DNA from: Crocinitomicaceae bacterium
GTDB lineage: Bacteria > Bacteroidota > Bacteroidia > Flavobacteriales_D > Sanyastnellaceae
Direction: 5' to 3'
NCBI GenBank assembly: GCA_002700285.1
Contig: PACT01000028.1
Coordinates: forward strand, 35,225 to 99,224
Length of the DNA: 64,000 nt
Both the position numbers and the translations under genes were made by a program. Positions 5,662 to 20,877 of the stretch are shown here, one piece after another. The notes beneath the pieces were generated by a model. The model was given only the letters and a program-made list of their open reading frames with translations, had not been told where the DNA came from and searched no databases. The first letter of the stretch is position 1. Each line of letters opens with the position of its first letter.

Positions 5662-8600
5662 TTATGGCCTCACAACGATAACTTTACTACCATATTGTGC
5701 AGAAACACCATTTTTCGTTGTCATTTTAATCTTAAAAACATAAACACCAGCAGGAACGTCACCGCCATTTCCGTCACGCAAATTCCATTCTGCAATATCT
5801 GTACGGTTTCCATGTGCCAAAAGTTCCGATTCAAACACTTTTATTTTCTTTCCAGTCACATCGTAAACTTCGACAAGTGCATCTACAACATTACAAACTT
5901 GGTTATGTGACACGCGGAAAGAAACATGATCATATGCTGGATTAGGATAGGCAATCACCGACGCCAATGCCACTTCTAAGGAATTAACAACCAAGAATTC
6001 CGTTGATGCAACCGCACTGTTATTCTGAACATCCCACACCTTTAACTCAAGAGAATGCGCACCGTCCTCAAGGTCATTGAATGGGTACTTTACCACACCA
6101 CTTTTGTAGGTATCCAAATCAGCAGAGAAATAGGTGTTTAAAATAAATGGCGATTCAAATTTGTCATCTAAGACCGCTTTAAGATCGTGACCTATTCCAT
6201 TGCCTACAGTGTTAATTCCACTTTCATCAAATAGCCGCGCATACAGCCAGGGATCTTCATTGGTAATGTCGCCCCTTACAAACAAAGAATCATTCATATA
6301 CAATTGAATGGTGGGTCCCAGATTGTCATTCCCCACATTTTCAGAAGTACCTCCGATCACAAAGTCTTCAGAAGCCCCATGCGCATCCAAATCTCCATCA
6401 ACGGCATAGAGACTTACTCTGCCTGAACCGTATGTGTAATCAATGTCTCTGGGTACGACAAACTCGAATTCAAAAACACCATCTATCACGCTCGCAACCC
6501 CTTTGTGGATGACGTTACGATACATTGTGTAGGAGAATGCGCCCGCCACATTATCATTGTCTAAAGTGCTTATTTGAGAGCGTTTGTCAAAAACTTTGGG
6601 ATAAACAAATCCGTTAAACTCATGTAAAGTGTCGCCCGAAGACGTTCCGACAAAACCACTCATTTTAACGAGATCGAGTGATTTAATCGTATCAGGTATT
6701 TCAGTCACAAATACTCTGTGAGTTGGATAGGCCAATTGCATTGCTGGATCTCCCAAAAGAGAGAAGTTTCTCATATTTGTGACACTCGTAACATCTGAGC
6801 TGTTTTTTGTGTCCTTACAAATATCTCCAAGGCATCTTAACTGCCCTGTCCCTTCATCCTCATCAAGAACTGTTTTAAAAAAAGCCGTATTGAGTTCCTG
6901 ATTTCCTCCACTAAAAACAGTACGTGTGGTCGTCAGCATTCCTACCGCTCCACCATCAGGATTAAACACGATCATCTCCCCTGCAGATTCGACTTCGGGG
7001 TCATCATATCTTGACAATTCGCATGTTGCAGTCATAAAGACAGGCAGACGTTTCTTGTTCGTCCACTCCCTAATCGTGGTCGTATTGAGAATGCGTTCAT
7101 GCGCCCAACCTCTGTCACCTCCATGACCGATATAATCAATAATCAAAGCCCCCTCTTCAACTTTTCGAGCTATTTCTGCTTCTGCTTCATTATATCGTTC
7201 TCCTCCGGGTGTCGCTTCTTGCAAATATGAATCTGGGTATATTTTAATAATATCGTATTCACCGTGTTCTTCTGAAACCCGATTAGAATGCACCTCACTG
7301 TCAGACATATGACGCCAACCATCATTGTTGTTGCCATCTTGATCATCTGTGACAAATATGATTCTGTTGCGCCAAGGGCCAAAAGTGGTCGATGACCCCT
7401 CTGTTTCGCATCCTGCGCCAGCTGTAGAATCCTCGTTCGCACCTGAATACGTTTCTACTTTTGACACAAATGCAAGGGCCTGCGACAAAGTTGGCGCGGG
7501 AATACGCCCCACACCTATTGCAAGTTTGTCCCCAGGAGATTCTCCCATACCTTCTTCTAAAAGTCCAAAATAATCATCCGTCACATAGCTGCTTACTGTA
7601 CTTTCTGAATTGGCGCTCTGAAACGTAAGAAGATTAACCCCATCTGGGTCAAGGTTTCGATTAAAGTACGAACCGTCACCCATAAGCTGAAGATACTTGG
7701 GCTTATCAGCATCACTTTCCGCCCTATCCCATAGCATCATCATCAACATTTTCAAAGCGGTGGGATCAGGAGAACCAGAAGAAAATGCATCAAAAACTTC
7801 GCGTTGACTCACGACCGCCACACGCATTCCCTGATTTGCATGTAACGTTGCGAGTCTCCGTGCTGCTGAGTCCAAAAGAGGCACCGTTACAATGACCAAA
7901 TCCAAATGGCCCAAGCCATGCAAATCTATATTATCAACGGATCCCATGGGTCTTACGCTCTTGGCAGCACCATATCTAAAGGCAACAAAACGCCTTGTTG
8001 TATCTTGTTGGGCTTTCCAAGTTGTTACGTCTCCTTCTTGGCTCAGGAGATTCCGGCGGGGAGAAAGGGGGTCGGTGACGTCCCAAATTTGGTCGACTGA
8101 AGAGGATTCTGTCAAACGATATCTTGCCGCATGATTGAACGACATGTTTTCTGTGCCATTTATAAAAAATTGACCACTTGAAAAAACCAATGCCTGCCTT
8201 GCCTGTACCCTGACATAATCAATCCAACCTTCAGCATCCGCATTTCCTGGTTCAAAAGACATTTCAACATTGACACCATCACCACTCATAGGGACATGAA
8301 GCGATAGGTTTCGTTTCTGAGCGAGAAGCAAACTGCTCTCACTGAGAGAGATGTCAGTGGTACTCACCTCTGTCCCATTACACTGCATCAAGTAATTGCT
8401 CGTAGCGCCAAGGGTTCTTCCTGCGATTCTTGAATCCACCCATCCAGAATCTCCAATGAGATTGGGGATGTTAAATGAAAAACCATAGATTTGACTCCCT
8501 AAACTGGTAAAGCGTTCTCCATAAAATTCTCTGCCACTCTTCGCAATGTTATGAGACTCTATTTCGTGAAATTCTTTTGCCAAATGAGTCTCTAATTCAT

Positions 8601-9477
8601 CTAAAACAGGCAACGACACATCTGCTGCATTTTCAATTCTACTCCCGAATACATTTTGAGGACCATTGATTCTAAGAAAATAATATGCACTGTCAGACCA
8701 AGGATTGAGTTCGTGTTGCCATCGCTCCGAGGATGGATTCCAGTTCCAAGAATCAACACCCGAAGCGTAAAAATAAATGGCATCCTCTTGATTAAATATG
8801 CCATCTGTAGCGCCATCTGCATGAACTTTTATCAATGGCAAGTCCAGTGGTCTGTCATCATTGTTTTGAAAGGGTAAAGCCCTGCCTCCTCCTCCAAACA
8901 ATTGAATGGATGCGAAATCAATCGTATCTGGATTCACACCCGAAGCGACCAAGTCTGCGTAACCAATTTTGAATATACCCTCTTGGCCTGTGGCAAATTT
9001 CAGCCAGGCACCATCAGATAAGACCGAATGTTCTGGCCATACTCTTTGAAACCTACTTCCCCCCACAGGTGAACTCCCTAGCATGCCTGACCAATTCGTG
9101 AGTTTCTCTATGCCCCCCTCCGCGTTCATTCTGTATTTGGGAGATCTGAACTGCGCATACCATTCTTTAGAATGTGTCCCCCTCACAATTCTCCAACCCG
9201 TTTGAATATTATCGTTAATCTCCACTTCACCGTTGCCTTGAACAAGTATCCAATTCAAATCTTGATCGAGCACTTCGATTCCAGACCAATGTGAGGGGAT
9301 TTTCACTTCACCTATGACAAAATTTAAATTTTCGTCATTAAACGACAAATCTGCAACAACAACTTCACCTAAAACAGAGACTTCATCTTGCCCAAAAACA
9401 CCGCATAAAAAAATGACATTTAAGCTGAAAAGCAGAGCGAATAAACGAAGTCGTGTGAATATCATTTTATACTGCAT
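5662..9477 (-). CDS. porU: T9SS C-terminal signal peptidase/sortase PorU (C25 family)
   Basis: Gingipain-like cysteine protease at the cell surface that removes the T9SS sorting domain from cargo and links cargo to lipopolysaccharide. The C25 catalytic dyad is present: His in YIGHGGDRGW (about residue 785) and Cys in TATCELSRYDD (about 819). A large N-terminal beta-rich part precedes the peptidase. The last 90 residues form a type A sorting domain (AYPNPAYDHVSF ... VYDVTGKKI ... PAGVYVFKI), which PorU is known to retain. The ORF track start lies 13 codons upstream. I chose the ATG at 9477 because it directly precedes the signal peptide MIFTRLRLFALLFSLNVIF. It is the first gene of porU-porV-ispF. 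Confidence 0.95.
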   Translation of the reverse strand: MQYKMIFTRLRLFALLFSLNVIFLCGVFGQDEVSVLGEVVVADLSFNDENLNFVIGEVKIPSHWSGIEVLDQDLNWILVQGNGEVEINDNIQTGWRIVRGTHSKEWYAQFRSPKYRMNAEGGIEKLTNWSGMLGSSPVGGSRFQRVWPEHSVLSDGAWLKFATGQEGIFKIGYADLVASGVNPDTIDFASIQLFGGGGRALPFQNNDDRPLDLPLIKVHADGATDGIFNQEDAIYFYASGVDSWNWNPSSERWQHELNPWSDSAYYFLRINGPQNVFGSRIENAADVSLPVLDELETHLAKEFHEIESHNIAKSGREFYGERFTSLGSQIYGFSFNIPNLIGDSGWVDSRIAGRTLGATSNYLMQCNGTEVSTTDISLSESSLLLAQKRNLSLHVPMSGDGVNVEMSFEPGNADAEGWIDYVRVQARQALVFSSGQFFINGTENMSFNHAARYRLTESSSVDQIWDVTDPLSPRRNLLSQEGDVTTWKAQQDTTRRFVAFRYGAAKSVRPMGSVDNIDLHGLGHLDLVIVTVPLLDSAARRLATLHANQGMRVAVVSQREVFDAFSSGSPDPTALKMLMMMLWDRAESDADKPKYLQLMGDGSYFNRNLDPDGVNLLTFQSANSESTVSSYVTDDYFGLLEEGMGESPGDKLAIGVGRIPAPTLSQALAFVSKVETYSGANEDSTAGAGCETEGSSTTFGPWRNRIIFVTDDQDGNNNDGWRHMSDSEVHSNRVSEEHGEYDIIKIYPDSYLQEATPGGERYNEAEAEIARKVEEGALIIDYIGHGGDRGWAHERILNTTTIREWTNKKRLPVFMTATCELSRYDDPEVESAGEMIVFNPDGGAVGMLTTTRTVFSGGNQELNTAFFKTVLDEDEGTGQLRCLGDICKDTKNSSDVTSVTNMRNFSLLGDPAMQLAYPTHRVFVTEIPDTIKSLDLVKMSGFVGTSSGDTLHEFNGFVYPKVFDKRSQISTLDNDNVAGAFSYTMYRNVIHKGVASVIDGVFEFEFVVPRDIDYTYGSGRVSLYAVDGDLDAHGASEDFVIGGTSENVGNDNLGPTIQLYMNDSLFVRGDITNEDPWLYARLFDESGINTVGNGIGHDLKAVLDDKFESPFILNTYFSADLDTYKSGVVKYPFNDLEDGAHSLELKVWDVQNNSAVASTEFLVVNSLEVALASVIAYPNPAYDHVSFRVSHNQVCNVVDALVEVYDVTGKKIKVFESELLAHGNRTDIAEWNLRDGNGGDVPAGVYVFKIKMTTKNGVSAQYGSKVIVVRP

Positions 9478-9592
9478 GTCATTTATTATAATAATAATGC
9501 CAAATTTCGGGCACAATCATGAAACAAACGCAAACAATACAAGGTTATTGCCACCTTAAAGTCGATAAAATTTCCGTATTATTGTGGGTTCA

Positions 9593-16231: not shown

Positions 16232-16744
16232 ATGAAAAACGTCAATTTAAGTTCTCGCGTCACATTAATATGTGCACTTTCTGCTTGTTTTGGTCTAGCT
16301 GGCTGCATTCCAGATCCCAATTATCCCATTGAACCTGAAATTGAATTCCTTTCTTTTAACGTTGATGAAAGTGAAAATGCGTTACTCTCTATTCATTTTA
16401 CCGATGGGGATGGGGATTTGGGATTAAATCAAAGCGATACGCTTGCACCATATTGTAGTACATGTGACCATCACTTCAATCTGAAATGTGAATACGACGA
16501 ACTCCGAAATGGTGTGTGGACGCACATCCCTTTAATTCCTGCCCAAGGACAGGTTCCGTTTTACTACCGAGTTCCCCGCGTTGAACCCTCCGGAACTCAC
16601 CCTGCGCTTAATGGCACGATTGAAATAGCAATGAACACCTGGTATCTTCAGTCTAATTTCGATACACTGAGATTTAGAATGACGCTAGAAGATAGAGACC
16701 TCAACATCTCCAATCAAGACACCACACGGTTAATTGTGAAGTAG
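16232..16744 (+). CDS. Hypothetical lipoprotein
   Basis: 170 residues with a lipoprotein signal ending GLAGC (Cys25), then PDPNYPIEPEIEF. The body contains an acidic motif TDGDGDLGLNQSDT that looks like a calcium-binding loop, and two CxxC-spaced cysteines (YCSTCDHHFNLKC). Small surface or periplasmic lipoproteins with a DGDGDLG loop are common in Bacteroidota, but I know no function for them. A hairpin follows. Confidence 0.8.
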   Translation: MKNVNLSSRVTLICALSACFGLAGCIPDPNYPIEPEIEFLSFNVDESENALLSIHFTDGDGDLGLNQSDTLAPYCSTCDHHFNLKCEYDELRNGVWTHIPLIPAQGQVPFYYRVPRVEPSGTHPALNGTIEIAMNTWYLQSNFDTLRFRMTLEDRDLNISNQDTTRLIVK

Positions 16745-16845: not shown

Positions 16846-19800
16846 TTAACAGTTTTGTCCGAAGGCAGAAAGAAATAAAAGAAGATCGGCAGCTGTGATC
16901 GTACCGTCATTATTTATATCTGCTGGGCAATCACTTCCTGCGGGAGCGAAAGTACAAGTACCATCATCTACAGTAGCTCCATTTGTGAAGTTCTCAGCAT
17001 CAGTGTACGTACACCCATAGCAGTCGTAAGTACATGATGAATTGTCTGCCAAGTATGCAGTCGCATTGTAATTACAAGCTTCAGCATCGTTACATCCAAA
17101 AGCAGATGAATTCGCCGCTCCAGGTGTACCTCCATCCACCCAAGACGCTTGCCAGTTATTTCCAAACGCGTTATCTGCAGAAATTGTTCCTGCAATATAA
17201 GTCGCGAGAATTTCCGGGATATATTCGAGTGAAGCTCCGCCACCGTTCGGGTTACCAATCAGCGTACTGCCTAGAATACTGAACCCTGCACCTGGCCAAA
17301 GACCTGATGAAGCATAAGTTACTGCATCGACAACATTGCCCCAGGCATCTTCAAGTGAAATTGCTTCACCACCGTTAGAGAAGTTGCCAAGCTCCATTTC
17401 GAACACCTGATATCCATTTCCAGAATAGTTAAGTGTTCCTCCACCTCCAGCAACAGTCACAATCACAAACTCTCCAGCAGCGATAGAAGTTCCTGCTGGG
17501 AAGACCAATCCCAATTGAGACGAACCAGATGCTGAGTTAAAGAAATGATATCCACTCAAATCTGCTGCAAGATCTCCTGTGTTATATAATTCACAGAATT
17601 CCCAATCAAAATCATCCCCTTGAGCAATGCTAGAGTTATAATGGATCTCATTGATTACGATGGAAGGTAAAGTGTAGTAACAAAGCGTGTTATCAACGAC
17701 TGTCGCATTGGCATTGTAGTTTAATGCGAGTGGGTCAAAACATCCTGTAACAATACATGTTCCATCATCAGTCACAGCAGCAGGATCATAATTGTCTGCT
17801 GTAGGGTCTGTACATCCTGGGATGTTAGAACAAGAGCCATCATCTTCCGCAGCCAAAGGATCATAATTCACAAATGAGACATCCATACACCCAAGACGGA
17901 CAACGTCCGTTGCAAGTACTGGGACCAATTTCCAAGATCCGTATGAATAAAAATTCGGCGCAGTAACACGGTAAGTAACACCCAATTCAACAACCGGCAT
18001 CATAATACCATCCACATCAACACTGTCATCTACTGCATCGTAACCCAAGTTAGCAACCTTAGCGTTACCAGAGCCGTCGTCTAGTAACCAATCACCGTAA
18101 CCTGCATTTTCGTTAGAAACTGGAGCGAGAAGCTGAGTTAGTACGCTTTCCCACTGCTCGTCATTGACTGCATCAGTAGTAAGAAGTTCTGCTTCTGGAA
18201 GTGTGTTTCCTGAAGACACAACGATCGATACAGCACCTACAATTTGGCGTAAGCCATATATCTCAGATACAGTTCCAGAAATATCAACTAAATCTCCTGC
18301 GACCACACCTTGTCCAAGACACCAAATAGCTGAATAAGGTCCTGTTTCATTTTGAATGACATAAGAAGCGCTTCCACCCAAAGAACCAGAAGCTGCATAG
18401 ACTGCTGTGACGACACCGCTCGTTAATACTTGGCCTGTCACAAGTCCACTTTGAATTTCCTGAATTGTTAAGTTGGGAATGAACACACAAGATCCGTCAT
18501 CAGTTGTGGCAGCGGGGTCATAGTTAGACGCTCCAGGGTCAGTACATCCACCCGTATTAACAGCACATCCACTGGTAAACTCATGAGAATCGATATTGCT
18601 CCAATCGTTAGATGGATTTACAATCCACTCACCATCAAATTCATTTGTACCCGCAGAGGCGAGCCACATTCCAGCGTTACCAGCATTTACGTCAGACTTA
18701 CGAACCAGTGTACCATTTTGAGTCGCATTTAAGATACCTGACACTGTGAATCCAGAACCGGGATCAGGTCCTATATCACCTATGAGGTCAACAAGTACAG
18801 TATCAGCACCCATAATTTCAGCAAGTGCATACGTATCGTCGCCATTTGACAGGTATATGTAAGTCATATCTGCAACCGCAAGAATCAATGGATCTGCAGA
18901 AGGGTGTGCGATAATGTACGTGCTGTTTGGAGCAACAGTTGCACCAGCGGGAAAAGTTAATGACCAGTAATCAAATTGATCCGTAATATAAAGTGCATCA
19001 GGAGTATCACATCCATTGCTACAATTGGCCATTGTGTACTGATCTAGAAAAACAGTAGAACCAGTCGGGTTGTAAAGCTCAATGTATTTATTGTTTGAAG
19101 ACCCTTCTGCTATCTCTGACACAAAGAGTGTACAAGATGTGCCAGTAAACACGCAACTTCCGTCATCCACTGAAGCCGATGAATCATAATTGTCCGCTGC
19201 GTCTGATGTACAACCGAAGAGAAGAACGTCGTTGACATCACGTGGTTGGATTTTAAATTCTCCAAAGGAATAATCAACAGACCCTGAAACTTGAACACTT
19301 GCGCCAACAGTCGTCAGACCCGCAGCGATTGCATTGAATCCTGCATCATCGAGTACAACTGCGCCAGAAGCATCGTTCACAGACCATTCGTTGTTGCCCA
19401 ATGCATCACTTTCAACCACTCCAGAAGTTTGAACCAAAACACCTTCCCACTGTTCTGCAGACACATCTAATGTTGACAGCACTTCAGAAGCAGGAAGTAC
19501 ATTGCCTTGACTGTTAATCGTGACTGAAGGCGAAGTGAGTTGTGTTAAGCCGAAATTCTCGGCAACAGTAGCAGACACATCAACAGAATCACCAACCTGA
19601 AGCGCCACATTTGATCCATCTATCCAAATACCAGAATAAGCACCAGCGCCATCTTGTATAGTCGCTCTGCCACCATACACGCCTGTAACGATACCTGAAG
19701 TCAAAACTGCGACACCCTCAAAAAGCGCTGATTCCTGACCGATTTGAATGTCAGAGATTAAAGTGTATGGAGAAGCCACACAAGATCCATCATCGAAATC

Positions 19801-20877
19801 AGCAGCCGAATTGTAGTTGGGCGCAACTGCATCCGTACATCCACCCACACCCACAGTAATGGTTCCTACCATACCTGCAGCAGCGTGCCCATATTGTGAA
19901 CAATCATAAGCGTAAACGCCTGGGATTGTAAAAGTGTGTGAGCCTATACATACGCCTGAAGCATCACCAGATACAATATCAAAGTAAAAAGATTCAGGGT
20001 TTCCAAAAGAAAGTCCAGTTTGTGTGTCAATATCTCCGTTTGCATTGTGTGATCCACCATTGTTTACCCAAAACACAAGTGAACCTATATCAACTGTTAA
20101 GTCAGCAGGCACAAATGTTAAACCAGAAGTTGCAACTTCTATACCATCAAGATTACATGCATTTGCGAATGTGCAAGATCCATCATCTTCGTTGGCAGTG
20201 GCATCGTAGTTCGTGGCATTTGAATTCGTGCAACCTTGCACAACAGGACCACAAGAGCCTGTAAAAGTGTGGAGACCTAAATCTGTCCATGTATCTATTG
20301 GCATAACGATCCACTCAGAAGAAGCTTCATCTGTTCCTGCAGATAAAGCCCAATCTGTATTTCCATTGATGACTGAAGACTTACGAACCAGAACATGATC
20401 TTTCGTTGCTTCTGTAACTCCGGCAACATCCCATCCAGACCCTGGATCAGCATAGTCTAGGTCTGTTATATTTTGACCTATGACATCAAGAACCACAAAG
20501 TCTGTCTCTGTACCCTGAACAAGTGCGTAACCATCATCACCATTAGATAAGTAAGTATGATTTTGATTAGACAAGGCAAGGATAGAAGGATCGGATGACC
20601 CGTGAGATATGATATAAAAACCACCAGCTGGGACTATAGCGCCCGGAGTAAAAGTATTCCAGTATTCAAACTCACCTGGTGTAGTTGGAGCATTTGAAAC
20701 ACTCGGAAAAGCATAGCCATCTAGGGAAATATCTGCATTTGTGGGATTGAAAATCTCCAAATATTTATTGTTAGAAGACCCTTCAGCGTACTCTGAGAAG
20801 AAAAGGTCACACTGAGCGTGTGTTGTAAATAGCGAAAAGAAAGTGGCTATTAGAAAGAAAATATTAATGCGTTTCAT
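16846..20877 (-). CDS. Giant secreted lamin-tail-domain protein with cupredoxin domain
   Basis: 1343 residues with a signal peptide ending THAQ. Recognisable modules: lamin-tail domain 1 (about 22-125, LFFSEYAEGSSNNKYLEIFNP); a plastocyanin-like domain (about 245-345) with a complete type I copper ligand set, His277, Cys326, His331 and Met336 (DCSQYGHAAAGM). Two OB-fold/DUF5689-like segments follow (about 370-550 and 805-990), with lamin-tail domain 2 (about 582-690) and domain 3 (about 1075-1200). Nine short Cys repeats of the form GCTDxxAxNYDxxAxxDDGSC separate the modules. The protein ends with a dockerin-like CPADINNDGTITAADLLLFL segment, not a canonical T9SS sorting domain. Function unknown; a surface or extracellular matrix protein is likely. 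Confidence 0.85.
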   Translation of the reverse strand: MKRINIFFLIATFFSLFTTHAQCDLFFSEYAEGSSNNKYLEIFNPTNADISLDGYAFPSVSNAPTTPGEFEYWNTFTPGAIVPAGGFYIISHGSSDPSILALSNQNHTYLSNGDDGYALVQGTETDFVVLDVIGQNITDLDYADPGSGWDVAGVTEATKDHVLVRKSSVINGNTDWALSAGTDEASSEWIVMPIDTWTDLGLHTFTGSCGPVVQGCTNSNATNYDATANEDDGSCTFANACNLDGIEVATSGLTFVPADLTVDIGSLVFWVNNGGSHNANGDIDTQTGLSFGNPESFYFDIVSGDASGVCIGSHTFTIPGVYAYDCSQYGHAAAGMVGTITVGVGGCTDAVAPNYNSAADFDDGSCVASPYTLISDIQIGQESALFEGVAVLTSGIVTGVYGGRATIQDGAGAYSGIWIDGSNVALQVGDSVDVSATVAENFGLTQLTSPSVTINSQGNVLPASEVLSTLDVSAEQWEGVLVQTSGVVESDALGNNEWSVNDASGAVVLDDAGFNAIAAGLTTVGASVQVSGSVDYSFGEFKIQPRDVNDVLLFGCTSDAADNYDSSASVDDGSCVFTGTSCTLFVSEIAEGSSNNKYIELYNPTGSTVFLDQYTMANCSNGCDTPDALYITDQFDYWSLTFPAGATVAPNSTYIIAHPSADPLILAVADMTYIYLSNGDDTYALAEIMGADTVLVDLIGDIGPDPGSGFTVSGILNATQNGTLVRKSDVNAGNAGMWLASAGTNEFDGEWIVNPSNDWSNIDSHEFTSGCAVNTGGCTDPGASNYDPAATTDDGSCVFIPNLTIQEIQSGLVTGQVLTSGVVTAVYAASGSLGGSASYVIQNETGPYSAIWCLGQGVVAGDLVDISGTVSEIYGLRQIVGAVSIVVSSGNTLPEAELLTTDAVNDEQWESVLTQLLAPVSNENAGYGDWLLDDGSGNAKVANLGYDAVDDSVDVDGIMMPVVELGVTYRVTAPNFYSYGSWKLVPVLATDVVRLGCMDVSFVNYDPLAAEDDGSCSNIPGCTDPTADNYDPAAVTDDGTCIVTGCFDPLALNYNANATVVDNTLCYYTLPSIVINEIHYNSSIAQGDDFDWEFCELYNTGDLAADLSGYHFFNSASGSSQLGLVFPAGTSIAAGEFVIVTVAGGGGTLNYSGNGYQVFEMELGNFSNGGEAISLEDAWGNVVDAVTYASSGLWPGAGFSILGSTLIGNPNGGGASLEYIPEILATYIAGTISADNAFGNNWQASWVDGGTPGAANSSAFGCNDAEACNYNATAYLADNSSCTYDCYGCTYTDAENFTNGATVDDGTCTFAPAGSDCPADINNDGTITAADLLLFLSAFGQNC
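16950..20236 (-). repeat. Nine Cys-bounded acidic repeats within the lamin-tail protein
   Basis: Protein-level repeat of about 21 residues, consensus GCTDPxAxNYDPxAxxDDGSC, used as a linker between larger domains. Copies include GCTNSNATNYDATANEDDGSC-type and a degenerate GCFDPLALNYNANATVVDN-type. Each has two Cys at the edges and an Asp-rich centre, suggesting a disulfide-closed metal loop (inference). Coordinates span the first to the last copy, not a continuous array. Confidence 0.8.

Follow-up and report, generated by a model that had tools for sequence, protein, structure and literature searches.

Gene and Module Organization

The window, meaning the whole stretch of 64,000 nucleotides that was analysed, carries on its minus strand at 16846..20877 a gene for P0001, a secreted modular protein of 1343 aa; the modules and residues of P0001 given below by window position all lie on this strand. 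Read by eye, residues 1-21 form a signal peptide (20815..20877) that lacks a lipobox; cleavage is predicted before Gln22, in keeping with the Q-rule of Bacteroidetes (PMC5837995). The first module is lamin-tail domain 1 (LTD1, residues 23-209, 20251..20811; PF00932 match G000:C24:55718-56047). It is followed by Cys-rich GC repeat 1 (residues 215-235, 20173..20235), the cupredoxin domain (residues 241-345, 19843..20157), and GC repeat 2 (residues 346-366, 19780..19842), both repeats having been located by a regular-expression scan. Next come an OB-like region of ExeM/NucH type without a nuclease domain (OB1, residues 370-553, 19219..19770; NF033681 match at 411-485, below the cut-off), lamin-tail domain 2 (LTD2, residues 582-771, 18565..19134; PF00932 match G000:C24:54041-54358), and a second OB-like region that is a homologous repeat of the first (OB2, residues 800-995, 17893..18480). 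OB2 finds support in a tRNA_anti-codon OB match in the relative L074, which is itself below the cut-off. Three further GC repeats from the same scan (residues 996-1066, 17680..17892) precede lamin-tail domain 3 (LTD3, residues 1071-1255, 17113..17667; Pfam 1071-1189), and the last GC repeats (residues 1261-1308, 16954..17097; scan and sequence) lead to a dockerin-like C-terminal tail (residues 1317-1343, 16849..16929). In Pfam, P0001 belongs to the lamin tail family, with 137.7 bits over three stretches against a cut-off of 34.3.

The arrangement resembles ExeM/NucH-type extracellular nucleases in the order of its lamin-tail and OB-like modules. Unlike those enzymes, P0001 lies far under the family cut-offs (86.4 bits against 1300 for the ExeM model NF033680, and 44 against 300), and a Pfam scan found no endonuclease domain in it. 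P0001 is a secreted scaffold of lamin-tail and OB-like modules linked by Cys-rich repeats, and it is probably held at the cell surface. The first-pass annotation had put a cupredoxin between lamin-tail domains of a large secreted protein. The large secreted lamin-tail protein is borne out, but the domain does not lie directly between two lamin-tail domains: it is directly flanked by two GC repeats, between LTD1 and the ExeM-type OB-like region.

The dockerin-like tail replaces a T9SS sorting domain and misses the model for GC-type dockerin anchored proteins (NF041540, 25.0 bits, cut-off 29). In the genome of the window (G000) there are 28 matches to this tail (CPADxNxDG...DLLxFLxxFGxxC), which end about two dozen open frames, alongside T9SS Por_Secre tails on about 60 open frames. 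The tail may serve as an additional signal for sorting or anchoring; a search for a cohesin partner found none. Elsewhere in the window, a Peptidase C25 protein (5662-9516, minus strand) with a weak T9SS-tail match has the size and domains of the PorU sortase.

The genes around the locus are rnhB, a glycosyltransferase, a lipoprotein, a LuxE-like gene, and TyrRS. No redox partner and no copper gene, including copper efflux, was recognised near the locus. A copper-gene neighbourhood or operon was rejected, the adjoining genes being housekeeping ones apart from that for a conserved lipoprotein. A multicopper oxidase was also set aside as partner: the sole Cu-oxidase_3 protein of the genome sits on another contig and shows no link to the locus. 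The small lipoprotein (16232-16744, plus strand) has no Pfam match, features an invariant CxxC pair and a DGDGxxGL motif, and is kept beside the P0001 gene across genera.

The Cupredoxin Domain

An intact type I copper site had been proposed on the basis of four residues, His277 (20047..20049), Cys326 (19900..19902), His331 (19885..19887), and Met336 (19870..19872), in C-x4-H-x4-M spacing. All four are exactly at these positions, and a pattern scan finds the spaced motif once in P0001; plastocyanin alignment and conservation also mark them as the ligands. Pfam Copper-bind (PF00127) matches residues 248-342 (36.1 bits, gathering cut-off 21.2; E 9e-9), the domain alone reaches 43.0 bits, and the same model matches 36 of 36 members of alignment A2 at E<=0.01. 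Plastocyanins are top-ranked in a phmmer search of the PDB (E 3e-6), where the four residues fall on the copper-binding residues of plastocyanin (1pcs), with two extra residues between Cys and the second His. The domain thus presents the type I ligand set, defined as a pair of His, a Cys, and an axial Met or Gln, each in the homologous place.

Structure prediction, which had been suggested as a check, gave a cupredoxin fold of nine strands for residues 236-347 (AF2 with an alignment of 36 sequences; pLDDT 94.2, pTM 0.87). Foldseek matched this model to plastocyanin, auracyanin, amicyanin, pseudoazurin, and NirK in the PDB with probability 1.00 and E down to 1e-7, and the plastocyanin match 1bxu has a TM of 0.80 on the target and an rmsd of 2.8. 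An AF2 model of residues 20-575 (pTM 0.35) is too poor for domain packing or site exposure, with the cupredoxin part again best predicted. Judged by profile and modelled fold, residues 241-345 are a genuine type I cupredoxin domain with a complete ligand set, and it is very likely that this domain binds copper.

Ligand Spacing and Relation to Named Copper Proteins

The spacing had been called plastocyanin-type, which is wrong. The ligands of plastocyanin, 37/84/87/92, give Cx2Hx4M (PMC517927 Table 1), whereas P0001 has Cx4Hx4M, and Cx2Hx4M is absent from every row of a 74-row alignment of the domain. Ligand steps of 5 + 5 are those of plantacyanin, cucumber basic protein, rusticyanin, sulfocyanin, and auracyanin (PMC517927). 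The P0001 positions 326/331/336 therefore share the spacing of rusticyanin 138/143/148, sulfocyanin 171/176/181, auracyanin 122/127/132, and the phytocyanins 74/79/84 (PMC517927). Also, the sulfocyanin signature CGI[AL]GHA..GM is similar to CSIGSHA..GM of the P0001-type family. Despite this shared spacing, the overall domain sequence is nearer to plastocyanin than to these proteins.

Plastocyanin (PF00127; TIGR02656) is alike in its His-Cys-His-Met ligands and heads the PDB matches both by sequence and by fold; P0001 differs in its Cx4Hx4M loop, its extra Cys pair, and its setting in a 1343-aa extracellular protein. Plastocyanin proper is excluded by the loop length and by the equivalog model TIGR02656, for which P0001 scores 29.5 and 35.3 bits against a cut-off of 87.85. 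The rusticyanin model TIGR03095 gives about 14-17.2 bits (cut-off 146.7). The domain is in fact far under the cut-offs of all the NCBIfam plastocyanin, halocyanin, pseudoazurin, rusticyanin, and CopI models, and is therefore a PF00127 cupredoxin outside those named subfamilies.

Conservation and Distribution of the Domain

The 74 alignment rows were drawn from the genome of the window and from loci of other genomes; one row repeats the window copy, which leaves 73 distinct domains. His277, Cys326, and Met336 are each retained in 73/73 and His331 in 72/73, the exception being the fasciclin protein L092, which has Asn there. The ligand loop is among the best-conserved stretches (mean pairwise identity 0.80). 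Cys241 (20155..20157) and Cys310 (19948..19950) either co-occur or are both missing in the inspected sequences, a pattern that points to a probable disulfide characteristic of the subfamily. Where computable, dN/dS of the domain is 0.04-0.28, and the domain is under purifying selection.

The genome of the window encodes four such domains in four genes, all with their ligands kept. Besides the P0001 gene, two of them stand in tandem on contig 46 (about 8108-9446), their products carrying Cys repeats and T9SS tails, and the fourth, on contig 19, encodes a protein of 402 aa. An order-wide search at E<=0.001 found the domain in 123 of 355 genomes, though the weakest matches may be ordinary cupredoxins. 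The same module also occurs in Fib_succ_major proteins and alone with a T9SS-type tail. In L081, L084, and L092 it is fused to fasciclin, and L081 additionally features an AhpC/TSA-like domain and an LTD.

Orthologues, Synteny, and Domain Loss

A survey of the pairing of the domain with lamin tails, as had been proposed, compared 58 LTD2-OB2 matches (E below 1e-90, one family) with the cupredoxin matches. Of these orthologous matches, 49 share a contig with the cupredoxin, mostly in one reading frame, with ORFs of 1290-1570 aa. Five of the remaining nine are short ORFs of 595-940 aa, consistent with contig ends. The module order LTD-GC-cupredoxin-GC-OB-GC-LTD-GC-OB-GCs-LTD-GC-tail is common across genera, with some variation in the GC repeats. 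The first-pass view that this is an unusual place for such a domain therefore holds against textbook cupredoxins but not within the syntenic orthologue family, where it is the usual state.

Synteny extends beyond the gene, and rnhB, the glycosyltransferase, and the small lipoprotein gene adjoin P0001 orthologues across genera. The closest named loci are in Flavobacteriales MAGs, some labelled Crocinitomicaceae. One locus, L065 (PBNL01000005.1), is labelled 'Euryarchaeota archaeon' and carries the flavobacterial locus; since this locus is fully syntenic, the record is probably mis-binned or mis-labelled.

Three more of these nine, the full-length orthologues L122-L124 (G097, G089, G093), are without the cupredoxin domain. 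They too adjoin rnhB, which indicates that gain or loss of the domain occurred in place. In the last of the nine, L125 (G024 contig 95), the domain is present but has Ser for Cys326 and Asp for His331; His277 and the Cys241/Cys310 pair are kept. Homologues lacking the Cys/His/Met set had been named as evidence that would count against a copper site; such homologues exist (L125 and L092), but they are rare. The domainless L122-L124 and the ligand-less L125 indicate that the scaffold can do without copper.

Mosaic Divergence of the Gene

Among close relatives (the window, L023, and L047-L051), LTD1, the cupredoxin domain, and OB2 differ blockwise, while adjacent modules are near-identical. Nucleotide identity between the window and L047 is 92% in LTD1, 77% in the cupredoxin, 93% in OB1, 79% in OB2, and 95% in LTD3. 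For LTD1, cupredoxin, and OB1 in that order, the values are 69, 97, and 98% between L047 and L048, 54, 83, and 66% between the window and L023, and 91, 72, and 66% between L023 and L048. The same pattern is found in dS, which between the window and L047 is 0.34 in LTD1, 1.00 in the cupredoxin, and 0.28 in OB1. Because dS mirrors the module identities, the block pattern does not reflect protein rate alone. The simplest reading of these comparisons is that module-sized blocks have been exchanged by recombination between relatives, with the changes near the Cys-rich repeats. All four ligands are retained in the aligned alleles.

Role of the Copper Site

The best explanation of the whole, to which we give a probability of about 0.6, is a secreted scaffold with a genuine type I copper site that serves as an electron relay at the cell surface. 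The type I cupredoxin domain is inserted after the first lamin-tail module of the scaffold. According to this proposal, it would bind one copper after export through His277, Cys326, His331, and Met336, and the site would relay electrons one at a time between small molecules or soluble redox partners on the outside of the cell. The remainder of P0001 would hold the cupredoxin in place at its presumed surface location. Taken by itself, single-electron relay is the most likely of the roles considered, at somewhat less than even odds, because the site is type I.

A somewhat less probable role is that the domain captures or buffers extracellular copper, like the copper-tolerance cupredoxin CopI (NF051440). 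CopI is likewise a cupredoxin tied to copper handling outside the cytoplasm, and 16 of 36 family members match its model at E<=0.01. Metal-holding would also fit with the several secreted copies that a genome can carry in unrelated hosts, and with the lack of partner genes. However, the P0001 domain scores 16.1 bits with the CopI model, far under its cut-off of 280, P0001 is not in a copper operon, and no gene for copper efflux was recognised beside the locus. Furthermore, CopI is known for His/Met-rich regions (PMC13308877), and such regions are not seen in the P0001 domain.

That the fold is simply another beta-sandwich module, a spacer or a binding unit in which copper is incidental, is unlikely. 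It would account for the shuffling of the domain among fasciclin, LTD, and Fib_succ_major proteins, for its absence from some syntenic orthologues, and for L125 and L092, which keep the domain and the Cys pair without the full ligand set. It does not sit well with the near-complete conservation of the four ligands over distant copies and diverged alleles, nor with the high identity of the ligand loop. Least probable by far is that the His/Cys/Met pattern arose by chance and marks no copper site, or that the site has decayed. The loop of P0001, CSQYGH, does fail PROSITE PS00196, which 60 of 74 rows match, but all the HMM, fold, and conservation evidence contradicts this reading. Profile, fold, and conservation rule out a chance pattern, and the ligand set stands well beyond chance because relatives share both the domain and its ligands.

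Novelty and Significance

Soluble blue-copper proteins are usually small carriers in respiratory or photosynthetic chains. What is new in P0001 is the arrangement, as its parts are already known: cupredoxins, lamin-tail domains, and Cys-rich repeats. A literature search for a bacterial combination of cupredoxin and lamin tail found nothing relevant among the papers covered. A bolder interpretation, which we regard as doubtful, is that the domain represents a distinct extracellular type I copper subfamily of marine Flavobacteriales (Cx4Hx4M, an extra disulfide, TGxSFGNPE), cassette-swapped between Cys-rich repeats of mosaic surface proteins and performing copper redox chemistry at the outer surface that would be new for these bacteria.

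In marine flavobacteria the P0001-type module forms part of large secreted scaffolds, of which a genome often has several. Should the site be loaded with copper at the surface, this would point to redox chemistry that depends on copper, or to copper capture, on the outside of the cells. Through block exchange at constant ligands, related genomes offer intact, swapped, missing, and ligand-less versions of one gene, and thus a natural experiment.
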